Part shown: in pieces, positions 3,908 to 15,225 of the stretch
How the letters are laid out: every line of letters begins with the position of its first letter
Position numbering within the stretch: the stretch's first letter is position 1
Notes under the pieces: model-generated
Database searches by the model: none
The model's input: the letters and a program-made list of their open reading frames with translations, nothing else
Told to the model about the DNA's origin: nothing
From: a virus
Direction: 5' to 3' (one strand)
Length of the DNA: 34,422 bases
Virus record (IMG/VR): IMGVR_UViG_3300049856_000083
Location: 1-34,422 of that record
Translations under genes and position numbers: made by a program

Positions 3908-4182
3908 GTGAAATGGAAAATTGCCCGCATTGTGGCGAAAGTCTTGTGCCAAAAGTTACCCGGCCTGACGGGTGCGTGTGCGCCGAAAGCGAATGGCGTG
4001 ACCCGTTCAACCTGCCGCCCGTGTGCGCGAACTACCAAGAGGAGAGGTCGTCCGGTGTGTGCGCAAATTGCGAACACGATGAACAATGCCACCAGCCGGC
4101 CAACGCCGAAGTCTGCGGGGCCGAAGGCATCCGCAGCACTGCCACGTTGGGCGACGCAACGAAGGGGGTGAATGATGACTGA
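3904..4182 (+). CDS. small zinc-ribbon-like protein, first unit of attC-like array
   Basis: The 92-residue protein has CPHC at residues 7-10 (ENCPHCGESL) and later pairs near CVC, CANCEHDEQC, so it probably folds around one or two zinc ions. It starts at ATG 3904, overlapping the previous stop. The last third (from about PANAEVCGAEGI) is encoded by the attC-like palindrome 4098-4152, so the C-terminal tail is likely to be read-through of the repeat and not part of the fold. The same happens in several downstream units. Specific role unknown; zinc ribbons in phage early proteins often bind nucleic acid or host transcription factors, which is general knowledge and not shown here. Confidence 0.68.
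   Translation: MSEMENCPHCGESLVPKVTRPDGCVCAESEWRDPFNLPPVCANYQEERSSGVCANCEHDEQCHQPANAEVCGAEGIRSTATLGDATKGVNDD
4098..4152 (+). repeat. attC-like site 1
   Basis: Imperfect palindrome with outer arms GCCAAC (4099-4104) and GTTGGGC (4146-4152). The latter fits the integron R' core GTTRRRY. Inner arms are AGTCTGCGG (4110-4118) and CCGCAGCACT (4131-4140), which pair fully except for one extra base, C4137. The single unpaired base on one side is the mark of attC hairpins. The loop is 12 bases. The next gene starts about 20 bases after the site with GAAGGGGG as binding site. Confidence 0.6.
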
Positions 4183-4540
4183 ATTAAAAATTGAGCGTAT
4201 TGCGTTAAGGCCGCCGACATTAAGCGAGCGATTACGTCAAGATGGCGGAGTAGCATCTTGGCTCGTTGAAGCCGCCAAGCAACTGGAAGCTCGCATCACA
4301 GAATTGGAAGCCGAGTTAAAAGGCACAGTGTCGGCGGGATTGGAGCTTGCGCGCCAGCGCGATGCGTTGAAAGTCAACAATGCCGGAATGGAACGCGCCA
4401 TCAAAGAGTTGGAAGCTCTGGAGGCGCTGGAAGCTCTGGCAAAACGCAAGACGCCGAACGCAAAATTCAGCGGGGAGCGAAGCGACTCCGCTGGAATGCA
4501 GGGTTCGGGGTCTGTGCACGAGAAAGGGGGTTTACTGTGA
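4172..4540 (+). CDS. coiled-coil protein, second array unit
   Basis: The product is 122 residues (ATG 4172; ATG 4175 equally possible, with better spacing from GAAGGGGG at 4161-4168). Residues from about 30 to 90 form a heptad-rich helix, with a Leu/Glu/Ala repeat (LEALEALEALAKR) encoded by three near-identical 9-base units at about 4410-4438. A typical coiled coil for dimerisation. The last 30 residues (from TPNAKFSGERSDS) are encoded within and just after attC-like site 2. The stop overlaps the GTG start of the next unit. Base composition is less GC-rich than the upstream ATPase gene. No family recognised. Confidence 0.65.
   Translation: MMTELKIERIALRPPTLSERLRQDGGVASWLVEAAKQLEARITELEAELKGTVSAGLELARQRDALKVNNAGMERAIKELEALEALEALAKRKTPNAKFSGERSDSAGMQGSGSVHEKGGLL
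4454..4508 (+). repeat. attC-like site 2
   Basis: Outer arms CCGAAC (4454-4459) and GTTCGG (4503-4508) are exact complements. Inner arms ATTCAGCGG (4465-4473) and CCGCTGGAAT (4488-4497) pair apart from one extra G on the right arm. The loop carries GGAG...CTCC and GCGAAGCG. Same length (55 bp) as site 1. GTG of the next unit lies about 30 bases downstream after AAAGGGGG. Confidence 0.6.
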
Positions 4541-4806
4541 TTGAGTTACTTCGCGCCCAAGCATCTGAGATTGCCAAAGAAGGGCATTGTGGGTGGGGAA
4601 ACACTATGCTGGACGCATCAAGCGAAATTGAACGGCTGCGTGCCGCACTAGGGGCACTGCTGCGCTTCCACGCCGAGGGAGACGATGGTGCGGAATTGCC
4701 GCGCGAGCTTTGGGCTGTGAGTTACCGGGCGGCGGTGGAAGGCGCAGAGGCTGCGTTGACGCCGAACGCTCAAGGTAACGCGCCTTCAACGGCGCTAAAG
4801 GACTGA
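4537..4806 (+). CDS. small phage protein, third array unit
   Basis: The 89-residue product starts MIELLRAQASEIAKEGHCGW with GTG at 4537, overlapping the TGA of the unit before (GTGA). The segment EIAKEGHCGWGNTMLDASSEIERLRAAL matches a pattern seen in many small phage early proteins: two helices around a Gly-His-x-Gly-Trp-Gly-Asn turn. Their function is not known to me. The tail from about residue 76 (TPNAQGNAPSTALKD) is encoded inside attC-like site 3, and the stop lies in the loop of that hairpin. A purine-rich site (AGAAAGGGGG) precedes the start. Confidence 0.68.
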   Translation: MIELLRAQASEIAKEGHCGWGNTMLDASSEIERLRAALGALLRFHAEGDDGAELPRELWAVSYRAAVEGAEAALTPNAQGNAPSTALKD

Positions 4807-4866
4807 CCTATGACTACCGAAACTGCCACGCCGTTGAAGGTCGCGCTGACCGAAGGGTTAGGGGCC
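4761..4866 (+). repeat. attC-like site 3 (long), stop and start codons in loop
   Basis: The largest of the set. The left end is GCCGAAC (4761-4767), the right end GTTAGGG (4857-4863). Inner arms are an exact 12-bp stem, 4783-4794 with 4829-4840, extended outward by GGTAACGCG (4774-4782) against CGCGCTGACC (4842-4851) with unpaired bases at T4841 and G4848 and an A/C mismatch. The 34-base loop holds the TGA of the gene before (4804-4806) and the ATG of the gene after (4810). Confidence 0.55.
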
Positions 4867-5148
4867 GGTACGGAAGAATGGAACCAGCCTGACGAGGGTG
4901 ATCTGCGCCTGACGAGCCAGCCGGTTTGCCCGTTTTGCGGATACGAGGAGGCGGATGCGTGGCAAATGCTTTTCGGGGAAGGCATGGAAAGCGACACTTC
5001 GCACGATTGCGGGCGATGCGGAGAGGAATATCTTTGCACGAGGGAGATCGTCCTTTACTACACGACGGAAAAACCAAAGGCACCTAACGTGGCGCTGTGC
5101 GGCGAGCGAAGCGAGTCCGAACGAGCACCGGGTTATGCGTCTTTTTGA
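4810..5148 (+). CDS. zinc-ribbon protein, fourth array unit
   Basis: The 112-residue product has two CxxC knuckles, C40/C43 (CPFCGYEE) and C67/C70 (CGRCGEEY), about 24 residues apart, a classic zinc-ribbon layout. An acidic linker lies between them. This is close in plan to restriction-alleviation or Lar-like phage proteins, but the match is by layout only. The first residues (MTTETATPLKVALTEG) are encoded by the right half of site 3, and the last 20 (NVALCGERSESERAPGYASF) by site 4, so only about residues 20-90 are likely to be the fold. AAAGGA at 4797-4802 is the likely binding site, also in the hairpin loop. Confidence 0.68.
   Translation: MTTETATPLKVALTEGLGAGTEEWNQPDEGDLRLTSQPVCPFCGYEEADAWQMLFGEGMESDTSHDCGRCGEEYLCTREIVLYYTTEKPKAPNVALCGERSESERAPGYASF
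5082..5138 (+). repeat. attC-like site 4
   Basis: The left end ACCTAAC (5082-5088) matches the RYYYAAC core exactly; the right end is GTTATGC (5132-5138). Inner arms GCTGTGCGG (5094-5102) and CCGAACGAGC (5117-5126) pair with one extra G (5123) and one mismatch. The loop is CGAGCGAAGCGAGT. A ribosome binding site (GAAAGGA) and ATG 5160 follow. Confidence 0.6.
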
Positions 5149-5159
5149 AAGGAACGAAC

Positions 5160-5423
5160 ATGAGTTTAGAAGCTTGGGGCGATGAACCTGACTATGGCCC
5201 GGAACTGCCGGAAGGCTGGTGGGATGACGATCAAGTGGCGAGTGTGCGCGGGGCTGTAGAAGCGCTGCTCGCGGAACCGCTGTACGAGGGGGGCAACAAG
5301 GACGCCGGGGTTTCGGTTCGATTCCTTGCGCGCATGAGCGTCCTTAAATATCGCGCCGAACTGGCGACGAAAGAGGAGCCGCTGATCGTTGAGGCTCTGG
5401 CAATCGTCGGTGAGGAACCATGA
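5160..5423 (+). CDS. small acidic protein, fifth array unit
   Basis: The product has 87 residues: an acidic, Trp- and Pro-rich N-terminus (MSLEAWGDEPDYGPELPEGW) then a helical body with a Leu/Ala-rich stretch. No cysteines or catalytic motifs are visible. ATG 5160 is chosen because GAAAGGA lies just upstream and site 4 ends before it; an in-frame longer version would start in the repeat. The stop is 5421-5423, only two bases before site 5, so this unit does not read through into its palindrome. Function unknown. Confidence 0.65.
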   Translation: MSLEAWGDEPDYGPELPEGWWDDDQVASVRGAVEALLAEPLYEGGNKDAGVSVRFLARMSVLKYRAELATKEEPLIVEALAIVGEEP

Positions 5424-5424
5424 C

Positions 5425-5484
5425 GCATAACGCAACGCTGTGCGGCGGCGGCGGAACGCCGTCCGAACGAGCACCGGGTTCGGG
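5425..5484 (+). repeat. attC-like site 5
   Basis: The left end GCATAAC (5425-5431) pairs in part with the right end GTTCGGG (5478-5484). The inner arms GCTGTGCGG (5437-5445) and CCGAACGAGC (5463-5472) are identical to those of site 4, with the same single unpaired base. The loop differs (CGGCGGCGGAACGCCG) and can itself pair CGGCG with CGCCG. GGAG and ATG 5509 follow. Confidence 0.58.
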
Positions 5485-5508
5485 GTCAGATCAACCACGG
5501 AGTGCGAA

Positions 5509-5739
5509 ATGAAAACCATGAGTTGCGACATTTGCGGCAGAAAAATAATGAAACAGGAAAACCTCGTGGAGTTGATCGAGGGGGCGAAGATCGACGGCGT
5601 GAGCGAAGTATGCAAACCGTGCTTGGAAGAAATAAACGCTCAGCACGCAAAGCTGACGCTCATCGTCGCCGACATGAAAGGCGCTTGGTTGCGCAAGTGG
5701 ATTGGAAATTTCAAGGCGAAAAAGGTGGCGAGCACATGA
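5509..5739 (+). CDS. small protein with two CxxC motifs, sixth array unit
   Basis: The 76-residue product starts MKTMSCDICGRKIMKQENLV. Cysteines C6/C9 and C35/C38 (CDIC, CKPC) form a likely treble-clef or zinc-ribbon site around a short acidic segment. The rest is a helix ending in a basic tail (WIGNFKAKKVAST). GGAG at 5499-5502 sits 6 bases before ATG 5509. The stop falls two bases before site 6. Size and layout recall small zinc proteins of phages that bind host factors, but no specific family is recognised. Confidence 0.68.
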   Translation: MKTMSCDICGRKIMKQENLVELIEGAKIDGVSEVCKPCLEEINAQHAKLTLIVADMKGAWLRKWIGNFKAKKVAST

Positions 5740-5740
5740 C

Positions 5741-5797
5741 GCCGAACGCCGAAGTCTGCGGCGAGCGCAGCGAGTTCGCAGGACTGCCGGGTTAGAA
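5741..5797 (+). repeat. attC-like site 6
   Basis: The left end is GCCGAAC (5741-5747), the right end GTTAGAA (5791-5797). Inner arms AGTCTGCGG (5753-5761) and CGCAGGACT (5777-5785) pair with one extra G at 5782. The left inner arm is identical to that of site 1. The loop GCGAGCGCAGCGAGT is almost that of site 4. The ATG of the next unit is only five bases downstream. Confidence 0.6.
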
Positions 5798-5801
5798 GGC
5801 C

Positions 5802-6098
5802 ATGGCAGAACTGCGGATTTACTACATGCGAGATAACCACACGTTCCGGCGTTTGAGCCTGAACATAGACGAAGCCGTTGAACAGATGCGGAGTGAGTGG
5901 GGCGACGGCTACACGCACGGAATGCTGTGCAGCAAGACCCCCGGAATGCCTGAATCTGTTCACGCGCACGGAAGTAAAAAGTGGTCGGAATTTGAAGCGG
6001 CTGCGAGGGCATATTACGCGGCAGTGCCTTCTAACGCAAAGCTAACCGGCGCGGAGCCGAATGGCGGAGCGTCCAGTGAGCGAAGCGAACGAGGTTGA
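5802..6098 (+). CDS. small unrecognised protein, seventh array unit
   Basis: The 98-residue product begins MAELRIYYMRDNHTFRRLSL and contains a short beta strand pattern followed by a helix (NIDEAVEQMRSEWGDGY) and a second helix (SEFEAAARAYYAAV). The last 24 residues (NAKLTGAEPNGGASSERSER) are encoded by site 7, with the same NAKxxG start as other read-through tails in this array. AGAAGG before ATG 5802 overlaps the right end of site 6. No family is recognised. Confidence 0.65.
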   Translation: MAELRIYYMRDNHTFRRLSLNIDEAVEQMRSEWGDGYTHGMLCSKTPGMPESVHAHGSKKWSEFEAAARAYYAAVPSNAKLTGAEPNGGASSERSERG

Positions 6099-6112
6099 GC
6101 GATGGGTTATGC
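6029..6112 (+). repeat. attC-like site 7
   Basis: The left end TTCTAAC (6029-6035) and right end GTTATGC (6106-6112) flank inner arms GCTAACC (6041-6047) and GGTTGAGC (6093-6100). These pair except for one extra G (6097). The central part is longer (about 45 bases) and contains GCGGAGCC, GAGCGAAGCGA and similar blocks. The start codon of the PAPS-reductase-like gene (6102) lies between the inner and outer right arms. Confidence 0.55.
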
Positions 6113-6860
6113 ACCTACATTAGTGAGCTACGGCGCTGGCACCAACAGCACCGCGATGCTCGTTGAAATGGCCCGCCGTGGCGAGAAGGTTGGCGGCATT
6201 ACGTTTGCCGACACCGGGGGCGAGAAGCCTGCGACGTATGAGTATTTGGCGATGTTCAGTGATTGGCTGCAAGACCACGGGATGCCGAAGATTGAGACTG
6301 TGAAAAAAGGTGGGCGCGTGGAAACGCTTGAGGAAAACTGCCACCGCATGAACATGCTGCCAAGCGTGGCCTATGGCTTCAAGGGTTGCAGCCTGAAATA
6401 CAAGGCCGAGCCACAGGAGGCGTTTGCGAACAACTGGAAACCAGCACGCGACGCATGGAATGCCGGCCTTCTGGTGGTGAAGTGCCTGGGCTTCGATGCC
6501 GACGAGCCGCACCGCGCGAGATTTACCGAGGACAAAAAGTACAAGTGGCGCTACCCGCTGATTGAGTTTGACATGGGGCGCGATGAGTGCATTGACTCGA
6601 TTAAGGCTGCGGGCTTGCCACTGCCCGGCAAGAGCGCATGCTTTTTTTGCCCGAACAGCAAGCCTCATGAGATTTTGGCGCTACCGCGCGATCTGCAAGA
6701 CCGAGCGGTAGCGATGGAACGGAACGCCAACCTTACGAGCATTGCAGGGCTTGGCCGAAGGTGGAAATGGGAGGACTTGTTGCGCGCAGACAGGGCGCAG
6801 CAGGTTCTATTCGAGGCACCACGGACGGACATGCCATGCGAGTGCGTCGATGGTGCATAA
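6102..6860 (+). CDS. PAPS-reductase-like PP-loop protein, last array unit
   Basis: The 252-residue protein has a PP-loop near the N-terminus (SYGAGTNSTAM, residues 9-19), then TFADTGGEKPATYEYL (35-50), typical of the PAPS reductase/ATP pyrophosphatase superfamily that binds ATP, often to adenylate a substrate. Cysteines C80, C96, C180, C183, C246 and C248 could hold an Fe-S cluster or zinc; the KSACFFCPNSKP segment resembles DndC-type and phage PAPS-reductase-like proteins. Relatives include DndC in DNA phosphorothioation, but no other dnd gene is visible. Its real substrate is unknown. The ATG lies inside attC-like site 7 and the stop (6858-6860) falls in a half site (GCATAACG). It is by far the largest gene of the array. 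Confidence 0.78.
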   Translation: MGYAPTLVSYGAGTNSTAMLVEMARRGEKVGGITFADTGGEKPATYEYLAMFSDWLQDHGMPKIETVKKGGRVETLEENCHRMNMLPSVAYGFKGCSLKYKAEPQEAFANNWKPARDAWNAGLLVVKCLGFDADEPHRARFTEDKKYKWRYPLIEFDMGRDECIDSIKAAGLPLPGKSACFFCPNSKPHEILALPRDLQDRAVAMERNANLTSIAGLGRRWKWEDLLRADRAQQVLFEAPRTDMPCECVDGA

Positions 6861-6891
6861 CGTAAAGTAGCCGGAGCGTGCAAGGTTGAGC

Positions 6892-11102: not shown

Positions 11103-11401
11103 ACCAGCGCCGCGCCCTTCTCGTCGAGCTTCGGCAGCGCCGCGCTCATCGTGTCGCACCACGTTTGCAGGTCGTCGATGGCCTGTTGGTACTGGCTGCG
11201 CTTGTATTTCTTGCCGGTGATCTGACCGGCAGCGGCGAGCATTGCGCCCGGTGTGTACGCGCGATTCACCTTGATGCCAGTCTTGGCGAACAGCTTGATC
11301 GCGCTCTTAAGCACGGTGGCGCTATACAGCTTGGTGGCGTCCGGGCCGACGAACGACATAGCGCCGTTCGCGTGGCTCTGGATGTGGGATTCTTGCTGCA
11401 T
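11099..11401 (-). CDS. unrecognised protein, 100 residues; first gene after promoter
   Basis: The product starts MQQESHIQSHANGAMSFVGP at ATG 11401, with AAGGAGAG 7 bases upstream. It continues with two helices (TVLKSAIKLFAKTGIKVNRA; YKRSQYQQAIDDLQTWCDTM) joined by a Gly-rich loop. It is the first gene behind the promoter at 11455-11484, so it may be made earlier or more strongly than the genes further along. No family is recognised. Confidence 0.66.
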   Translation of the reverse strand: MQQESHIQSHANGAMSFVGPDATKLYSATVLKSAIKLFAKTGIKVNRAYTPGAMLAAAGQITGKKYKRSQYQQAIDDLQTWCDTMSAALPKLDEKGAALV

Positions 11402-11727: not shown

Positions 11728-12320
11728 AGCGCGCCCCACTGTGCTGCCATCGCGTCGGCCAAGCCTTGGAAGGTCGCGCTCCTGATCTTCCATCTGTCTG
11801 GCGAGGGCGGCAGGTTGTACCAAACCGGGAGCGACTTTCCGCTCTTGGTGATGTGTCGCGCACCCTTGCCAACGATGTTGGTCGGCGCCAGCGGCGGCAG
11901 GTTCTTGAGCCATAAACACGTCGTCTTGGTTGCTTCGTGACCGAACATCCACGGTTGCACAATCTGGTCAGGTTTGCGGATGTGGGTCGAGATAACGGAC
12001 ACCGGATTCTCCAAGCATATCCGCTCAATCGGCGCGTCGAGCAACAGGCGCACGAAGTCGAGGGCGGCCTGCTGGCGTCCATCGGCGATCTTGGCGGCGA
12101 AGTGTTTCGCGCCGCTCACAGCCAGATGCGTGCATGGTGGGTGCGCGATCATCAAGTCGAACGCGCCGCCCTGCTCGATCATGTCCTCAACGCGCCCGAT
12201 GTAGTGGTATGGCGAATCGTCATCGCTCGGCAACAGGTCGCAGGACATTACATCGTGTCCGAGGACATCAAACGCCCTGCGCACCGCGCCGGAATATTCG
12301 CAAGCTACAAGAACTTTCAT
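11724..12320 (-). CDS. short cytosine-5 DNA-methyltransferase-like protein
   Basis: The 198-residue product has the AdoMet-binding opening MKVLVACEYSGAVRRAF, then an acidic CDLLPSDDD, a motif IV-like HPPCTHLAVSG (C63 in the place of the catalytic cysteine), ENP at 104-106 (motif VI) and a closing RSATFQGLADAMAAQW (motif X-like). These are the order and spacing of the m5C methyltransferase family, but the target-recognition region is almost absent, so it is much shorter than a standard enzyme (over 300 residues). Such short phage versions are common; whether they methylate DNA or only bind is unclear. It could protect phage DNA from restriction. The ATG overlaps the stop upstream and no binding site is seen. 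Confidence 0.76.
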   Translation of the reverse strand: MKVLVACEYSGAVRRAFDVLGHDVMSCDLLPSDDDSPYHYIGRVEDMIEQGGAFDLMIAHPPCTHLAVSGAKHFAAKIADGRQQAALDFVRLLLDAPIERICLENPVSVISTHIRKPDQIVQPWMFGHEATKTTCLWLKNLPPLAPTNIVGKGARHITKSGKSLPVWYNLPPSPDRWKIRSATFQGLADAMAAQWGAL

Positions 12321-14700: not shown

Positions 14701-15225
14701 CATATATCCCACCATACGGAATAAAGGGTCAGAGTAGAACTGACCGGCAGTCAGGAAATAAATGGGGACAGAGTTGGAAATCCTTGCGCCCAGCGCGCGC
14801 GCCGGTGTAACGTCCTCCCCCAGATCGACCTCGGAATAGGCCGATGCTCACACCCCGGCCCCGCGAACGGATGCAAAACCAGCAGCGCGAGGAGAAAGCC
14901 AAGGCCTTCCGGCCAGCAGATCGGGAGCAACACAGGGCACTGCGGGAACAGAGGGGCGAAACACCCAACGGGGCGGCGAAGCCAGCACCCCAACCCTCGA
15001 AAGGCTGGCGAGTCAGCGATACCGGCGGCCGGTCCATCGACCCCCCGTACCCCTGTAAAGGCCACCAGATCGCACCCTCGCGCTCTGGGAGGCACCGGCT
15101 CGCCCGCCGTGTGCCTCTGGCTGAGTCCGCTCCTCCAGCAGCCAGATGAGGAACATCACACCCAACAGGCACCGGCAGAATGCGTATACACTGCGCAGGT
15201 TTTCAAGACCACAAAGAGGCGCACG
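14701..15225. other. gene-free stretch, possible foreign remnant
   Basis: About 525 bases with no convincing gene. Several frames stay open on both strands (plus 14844-15149, minus 14751-15095), which in GC-rich DNA is expected by chance, and none has a good ribosome binding site. At 14726-14775 the phrases GGGTCAGAGTA and AAATGGGGACAGA recall non-coding sequence found beside IS200-like REP-associated transposases. This is a weak memory-based likeness. The stretch separates the leftward operon from the packaging genes; no clear rightward promoter for terS is seen. Confidence 0.35.

Follow-up and report, generated by a model that had tools for sequence, protein, structure and literature searches.

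Can the gene cassettes of integrons, the best-known bacterial gene-capture device, also belong to phages, and in what form? The question is raised by IMG/VR virus record IMGVR_UViG_3300049856_000083, a sequence of 34,422 bases that was analysed whole and is referred to here as the window. A sequence-only reading of it had described seven attC-like palindromes (4098–6112) separating one-gene units, without an integron integrase (IntI), and had proposed either a new kind of phage gene-acquisition site or a phage element that merely imitates attC. The window encodes a portal protein, a major head protein and tail genes, so that the array sits in a tailed phage. We consider it likely that the array consists of integron gene cassettes of this phage, of a reversed type that is widespread in phages and is moved by IntI.

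The attC sites and the ends of the cassettes

Two models of bacterial attC sites were used to search the window. The bacterial reference was a set of 80 genome loci encoding integron integrases, chosen to avoid circularity, and 42 attC sites, nearly all adjoining the IntI genes of this set, served to train a profile; its matches in the window number seven and score 17–28, every one of them on the + strand. In 40 Markov-shuffled windows there were no matches scoring 18 or more, and 0.15 per window scoring 16 or more. The second was a covariance model (R1) of 33 bacterial attC sites, none of them from the window, whose structure combines the usual R and L arms with a single extra base. Scanning of the 34 kb with R1 returned the same seven sites (Table 1) at approximate E-values (short calibration) of 1.4e-9 to 0.0095, with no other match in the window; against 228 kb of control viral DNA R1 gave none, even with the threshold relaxed to E≤1. 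The seven sites are real, and well above chance expectation. They have the R''/L''/L'/R' arms, the RYYYAAC and GTTRRRY ends and the extrahelical base on one arm of attC architecture, and all seven lie within 2 kb, where two or more close sites suffice for a cluster of attC sites lacking integron integrases (CALIN). As judged from the sequence, the attC array of the window is genuine, and it fits the CALIN definition but departs from canonical cassette polarity.

Much of the earlier description of the sites holds. The extra base is on the right arm, and the inner arms recur between sites 1 and 6 and between sites 4 and 5. The seven places also stand, with site 2 now starting at 4453 and the spacings corrected to 288–355 bp, although site 3 is not a short palindrome but a 103-nt site with a long loop containing the ribosome site and start of the next gene.

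A cassette of an integron array contributes to two neighbouring attC sites: it supplies the right end of the first and the left end of the second. One example in the window is the right end of site 4 (TTATGCG), which pairs with the left end of site 5 (CGCATAA), and a second is the match between the ends at sites 6 and 7 (TTAGAAGG / CCTTCTAA). We scored the match at four variable positions, comparing R' either with R'' of the next site (within the cassette) or with R'' of its own site (within the site). For 222 viral units the score is 3.57 of 4 within cassettes and 2.32 within sites, and the match is perfect in 169 and 25 of the units respectively; the corresponding scores are 3.74 and 2.48 for 96 bacterial units, and 3.33 and 2.00 for the window. 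Within the window the match is perfect for units 4/5, 6/7 and 7/terminal, and extends to three of the four positions in the other four units. The terminal boundary GCATAAC, read as GGTGCATAAC from 6852, is exactly complementary, over 10 bases, to GTTATGCACC in the right end of site 7, and the open reading frame (ORF) at 6102–6860, which is PAPS-reductase-like, is therefore the last cassette, its stop codon TAA finishing on the cassette's last base. Division of the array into one-gene cassette-like units, as first described, is thus correct but needs this one further unit. Array ends of the same kind are present in seven phage contigs.

An early finder that demanded pairing of a site's own two ends detected only sites 1 and 2, because the ends of one site come from different cassettes. 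When each cassette's own ends are joined in silico the summed fold energy of the seven window sites changes from -115.4 to -153.4 kcal/mol, with sites 1 and 2 barely altered and sites 3–7 gaining. The ends of the units covary as in canonical cassettes, which is expected of recombined units and unlike terminators.

Gene polarity and attC-borne leaders

The strand of an attC site is readily assigned by R1 (site 2 scores 51.4 bits on the + strand and 13.6 on the - strand), and a class 1 integron used as a labelled control has ereA on the + strand and the model match on the - strand. The gene strand in each interval was called with a codon model trained on the long genes of each set, in place of longest-ORF calls, because antisense ORFs are long in this GC-rich DNA. 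Among 100 intervals of the bacterial IntI loci the gene is opposite the attC match strand in 69, on the same strand in five and unclear in 26 (opposite in 69 of the 74 callable), and the best ORFs in the five same-strand intervals are only 31–37 aa. The window is the reverse, with five of six intervals same-strand, none opposite and one unclear, and its coding strand is fixed by the homology of the ORFs at 6102–6860 (phrog_424) and 4810–5148 (phrog_6504).

The same polarity is found in other viral contigs. A first search, with a degenerate pattern for attC sites of a single arm type, gave 13 viral loci, of which ten contigs were read whole or almost so, and a second arm type gave 48 further viral loci. 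The gene is on the attC match strand in 40 intervals of the first arm type (none opposite, one unclear) and in 153 of the second (six opposite, 18 unclear), that is, in 193 of 199 callable intervals combined. Same-strand arrays are present in some 50 viral contigs besides the window, several of them with 8–14 sites. Nine of the array contigs bear phage hallmark, transposition or replication genes; the genes in tested contigs include those for portal, terminase, tail, tape-measure, head-protease and Mu-like transposition functions, and this diversity indicates that several phage groups are involved. The six opposite-strand intervals, in L164, L168, L177, L188, L194 and L199, may represent insertions of bacterial-type cassettes into phage arrays, or may be strand miscalls.

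Because gene and recombinogenic attC strand coincide, attC lies in the 5' leader of the gene, and not 3' of a gene on the opposite strand as in a canonical cassette. The extra base of the right arm is indeed a mark of attC, as had been proposed, but its arrangement is not the ordinary one, since in bacteria the strand with the right-arm base opposes the gene and here it is the coding strand.

Neither of the two interpretations offered initially is retained. Phage attC clusters without an integrase are not a new kind of site, as 17 have already been reported, and IntI1 recombined five of six phage sites tested (Qi et al. 2023, PMC9892861); an element that imitates attC is not required by the data. 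The reported clusters are likewise genuine attC arrays lacking integrase, and one of them, in Manatee Spring phage (MW202573), is reversed too, with deposited genes and attC matches both on the + strand. Normal polarity is seen in TJE1 (genes +, model matches -), and also in Rctr41k and Vibrio phage Va_90-11-286_p16. In Virus Rctr41k (L031, KX853513; 4686–10101), a record assigned to a phage that Qi et al. 2023 do not list in their main tables, an IntI gene (45% to IntI1) has six normal-polarity attC-like sites downstream of it. The main text of Qi et al. 2023 makes no mention of reversed polarity, attC-borne starts or cassette exchange between phages, and we found neither reversed gene polarity nor starts inside attC described in the open-access literature searched, with preprints and most subscription journals outside the search. 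No cultured phage with a reversed array was found among the named phage records queried with attC and array sequences. The reversed polarity looks new and is the actual novelty of the window array, and the reversed array is a widespread and apparently undescribed phage form.

At 45 viral sites, two of which are window sites 3 and 7, the ribosome site and start codon are within attC and the ORF reads out via the right arm. More generally, the ORF of the 222 viral units with a called ORF starts no more than 40 nt after the site in 137, inside it in 34 and later in 51. A ribosome-binding site 5–35 bases after the right end had been noted for every unit of the window array; the start codon follows the right end by 5–28 nt at five sites, whereas at sites 3 and 7 the start is within the site. 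The terminal loop of site 3 holds the ribosome site AAAGGA and the start codon of the next gene, an RNA fold of the site likewise places that start codon in the terminal loop, and the fold z is -3.3 as RNA and -4.4 as DNA. The leaders resemble one another across different genes, as in the window (MTTETATPLKVALTEGLG) and in phage contigs G011 (MTTESTPAKVRLTDGLG) and G004 (MEQSNPPALVRLSEGLG). We also note a near-identical 100-nt segment of attC, start codon and leader peptide on different genes in G004 (11822–11929), G006 (11254–11361) and L129 (1401–1500), a pattern that could arise by leader swapping or by assembly of new cassettes on one standard attC.

Table 1. Coordinates of attC sites, cassette ORFs and the array end in the window.
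Feature	Position	Strand	Details
attC site 1	4098..4152	+	R1 32.0 bits, E 3e-5; profile 23.0; recombinogenic 'bottom' strand is the + strand
Cassette 1 ORF, 122 aa, no family	4172..4540	+	Continues into site 2; codon model favours + by 11 bits in the interval
attC site 2	4453..4509	+	R1 51.4 bits
Cassette 2 ORF, 89 aa, GTG start	4537..4806	+	Terminates inside site 3; codon model weak, + by ~5 bits
attC site 3, 103 nt	4761..4863	+	R1 20.8 bits; profile 21.5
Cassette 3 ORF, 112 aa, zinc-ribbon-like	4810..5148	+	phrog_6504, E 4.4e-9; begins inside attC, leader MTTETATPLKVALTEGLG
attC site 4	5082..5138	+	R1 40.9 bits
Cassette 4 ORF, 87 aa	5160..5423	+	Ribosome site AAGGAA; codon model + by 4 bits, unclear
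attC site 5	5425..5484	+	R1 24.0 bits
Cassette 5 ORF, 76 aa, CxxC...CxxC	5509..5739	+	Codon model + by 11 bits
attC site 6	5741..5797	+	R1 33.3 bits
Cassette 6 ORF, 98 aa	5802..6098	+	AGAAGG ribosome site ahead of ATG; continues into site 7
attC site 7	6029..6112	+	R1 39.6 bits; start codon of next ORF in right spacer
Cassette 7 ORF, 252 aa, PAPS-reductase-like	6102..6860	+	phrog_424, E 1.2e-24
Terminal boundary GCATAA^C	6855..6861	+	Followed by putative attI-like sequence

Several of the cassette genes call for comment. The cassette 1 ORF has no Pfam or PHROG match, and the top frame of the codon model in its interval is 4057–4182 and not the listed ORF; in the cassette 6 interval the model favours the + strand by 10 bits but its top-scoring frame again differs from the listed ORF. 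For these two cassettes the individual ORFs are therefore less certain than the strand. The cassette 7 protein is 73.8% identical to a protein of Pseudomonas phage PARCL1pr, and relatives are encoded in 15 viral contigs, none of them located in attC arrays, so that the PAPS-reductase-like gene is not restricted to cassettes. A search of Rfam gave no relevant family in the array region; the sole match of the window is a Betaproteobacteria-1 RNA (14906–15013, +; 50.6 bits against a gathering threshold of 49.4), which hints at a betaproteobacterial host.

Turnover, integrases and cargo in other array phages

Comparison of related array phages provides several instances of cassette turnover. One example is the pair G003 and G009, in which the alignable backbone is 86–94% identical and a 428-bp unit is 100% identical, cut exactly at GCCCAA^C and bordered on either side by sequence that differs between the two phages; this unit is the last of the array in G003. 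A second example is L166 and L174, where arrays with different cassettes lie between flanks that are 96.5% identical over 1,688 bp and 97.4% identical over 768 bp, and a cassette that they have in common breaks off at CTAA^CGG. The homologous flanks of G006 and L127 likewise have different cassettes between them, and in G005 and L204 alignment is limited to one 299-bp stretch (97%) spanning a cassette. An identical gene order in all relatives, named in the sequence-only reading as evidence against cassettes, is thus not seen in this class of array, where related phages other than that of the window share flanks yet differ in the cassettes between them.

A complete integron has intI and attI beside the array. 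A search with TIGR02249 gave no match in the window record, which is possibly a fragment, and agrees with the earlier report of no integrase; the end of the window array is putatively attI-like, and we assume that the host or some other element provides IntI for this array. Integrases are present in some of the other phages. In G001, G005 and G010 IntI is downstream of the array in the direction of the genes, and is codirectional with them in G010. The distance past the array-end boundary is 135–205 nt in G001, which is Mu-like, and in G005, which has tape-measure and tail-fibre genes; the stretch between array end and intI is the expected location of attI. An IntI remnant is downstream of the array in G004. 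A tree clusters the IntIs of G001 (L130) and G005 (L131) with L061 of a Rubrivivax bin, with support of 98/92, and places the G010 IntI elsewhere. The L061 IntI is located on a 34-kb contig of that bin, which may itself be a phage. A 412-aa IntI-like ORF in G008 was rejected as an IntI, and proved to be an ordinary phage integrase.

We compared 211 phage cassette proteins for relatedness and scanned 93 of them against Pfam. Relatives in the cassettes of another viral contig were found for 48 of the 211 and relatives in the 80 bacterial IntI loci for none, which suggests that the phage and bacterial cassette pools are separate, although the sample of bacterial loci is small. The majority of the 93 scanned proteins have no Pfam family match, and the families identified include N6/N4 (five) and Dam-type (three) DNA methyltransferases, a Tad2-like anti-Thoeris protein and an RNA ligase, together with Thg1, MazG and DHH/DHHA1 domains. 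It is possible that cargo such as the methyltransferases, the Tad2-like protein, the RNA ligase, Thg1 and MazG is a source of counter-defence genes.

Mechanism, alternatives and relation to bacterial integrons

We propose that a unit, read on the coding strand, would begin at the C of RYYYAA^C, continue through attC and the gene, and stop at the following RYYYAA. IntI would recognise the coding strand, which makes attC a 5' leader of the gene and not a 3' element; certain units would also take their ribosome site, start codon and first 15–20 residues from attC. Excision and insertion by IntI would take place at RYYYAA^C on the folded strand, through recombination of attC with another attC or with attI. 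Entry of new units is expected at the 3' terminus of the array, the position at which intI and an attI-like end are retained in a few such phages. Where a phage lacks intI, as that of the window does, the enzyme would have to be supplied by the host or a co-infecting element. Expression of the units would be driven by an upstream phage promoter. On this scheme the window array would be mobile.

Five observations weigh against this proposal. First, a full IntI above the curated cut-off is present in only four of about 55 array contigs, so that for most of them the enzyme has to be assumed. Second, the window ORFs at 4172–4540, 4810–5148 and 5802–6098 extend past the cassette cut into the next attC, and because they cross the cut their C-terminal tails would vary with the neighbouring unit. 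Third, sites 4–7 as they stand are, as DNA folds, no more stable than shuffles. Fourth, the viral sample derives from two attC arm types, and some of its contigs are related, so that the intervals are not all independent. Fifth, no close relative of the window was found, the best portal being 47% identical, and turnover is therefore seen in other array phages and not at the window array. There are a few portal relatives at 44–47% identity and two at 25%, with no attC sites in the stretches of them that were examined, and searches with a 583-aa early protein and with the replication protein gave no relatives.

The absence of IntI from most contigs would fit an account in which the sites are attC by descent but inactive, and units are exchanged by homologous recombination between similar arms or by some other phage recombinase; the near-identical attC sequences that recur between units could seed such exchange. 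We regard this as unlikely, since the junctions coincide with RYYYAA^C and R' covaries within cassettes and not within sites, as for cutting and joining there, and a full-length IntI is retained at the array end in some phages.

It is considerably less probable that the array is an ordinary bacterial CALIN of normal polarity that the phage acquired from a host chromosome. The window attC sites are indistinguishable from bacterial ones and phage CALINs of normal polarity do exist, TJE1 being one, but the idea is contradicted by the gene strand in the window and in the 193 of 199 viral intervals, and by cassette proteins that have relatives in other phage contigs and none in the bacterial loci. 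We give very little weight to the suggestion that our comparison contigs are not viral but bacterial integrons that were mis-sorted, such that the polarity contrast is not specific to phages. IMG/VR records are predictions, and pieces of class 1 integrons are among the IMG/VR matches to IntI1; the tested contigs, however, have portal, terminase, tail, tape-measure, head-protease or phage transposition and replication genes, their polarity is unlike that of bacterial arrays, and the window has portal and major head proteins. Finally, a chance resemblance to attC of terminators, REP-like palindromes or translation leaders would accommodate the unremarkable fold energies of sites 4–7 and the location of sites in gene leaders, but is hardly credible when an independent attC model recovers all seven sites and none in the 228 kb of control DNA, with a strand asymmetry of 51 versus 14 bits and covarying cassette ends.

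Reversed integron cassettes moved by IntI thus remain our favoured explanation, and the comparison with known integrons is informative. Class 1 and sedentary chromosomal integrons of bacteria have the same attC architecture, the same RYYYAA^C / G^TTRRRY cut and covarying ends, and their arrays adjoin intI, as do a few of those in phages. Unlike them, the phage arrays have attC 5' of the gene, read toward intI and not away from it, and mostly lack intI, and no cassette proteins are common to the two within our sample. Integrons of Acidobacteria and Planctomycetes with intI codirectional to the cassettes have the same relation of intI to gene direction as phages; in their loci L066, L074 and L090, however, intI is upstream and polarity is normal, whereas in phages intI is downstream and polarity reversed. 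In bacteria the choice of the bottom strand at attC serves correct orientation toward the promoter (review PMC8946536).

On balance, and with less assurance than for the window array itself, we favour a broader proposal in which phages have a mirror-polarity cassette pool of their own, apart from that of bacteria, with attC acting as a translation leader, IntI encoded by a minority and acting in trans elsewhere, and a cargo of counter-defence genes (orphan methyltransferases, Tad2-like anti-Thoeris proteins and RNA repair). The strand of the gene relative to attC is a simple rule that separates phage from bacterial cassettes. If the proposal is correct, a widespread phage version of opposite polarity would represent a second solution to cassette expression and would explain how small accessory genes of phages are renewed one at a time, and the origin of some phage counter-defence genes would become searchable.

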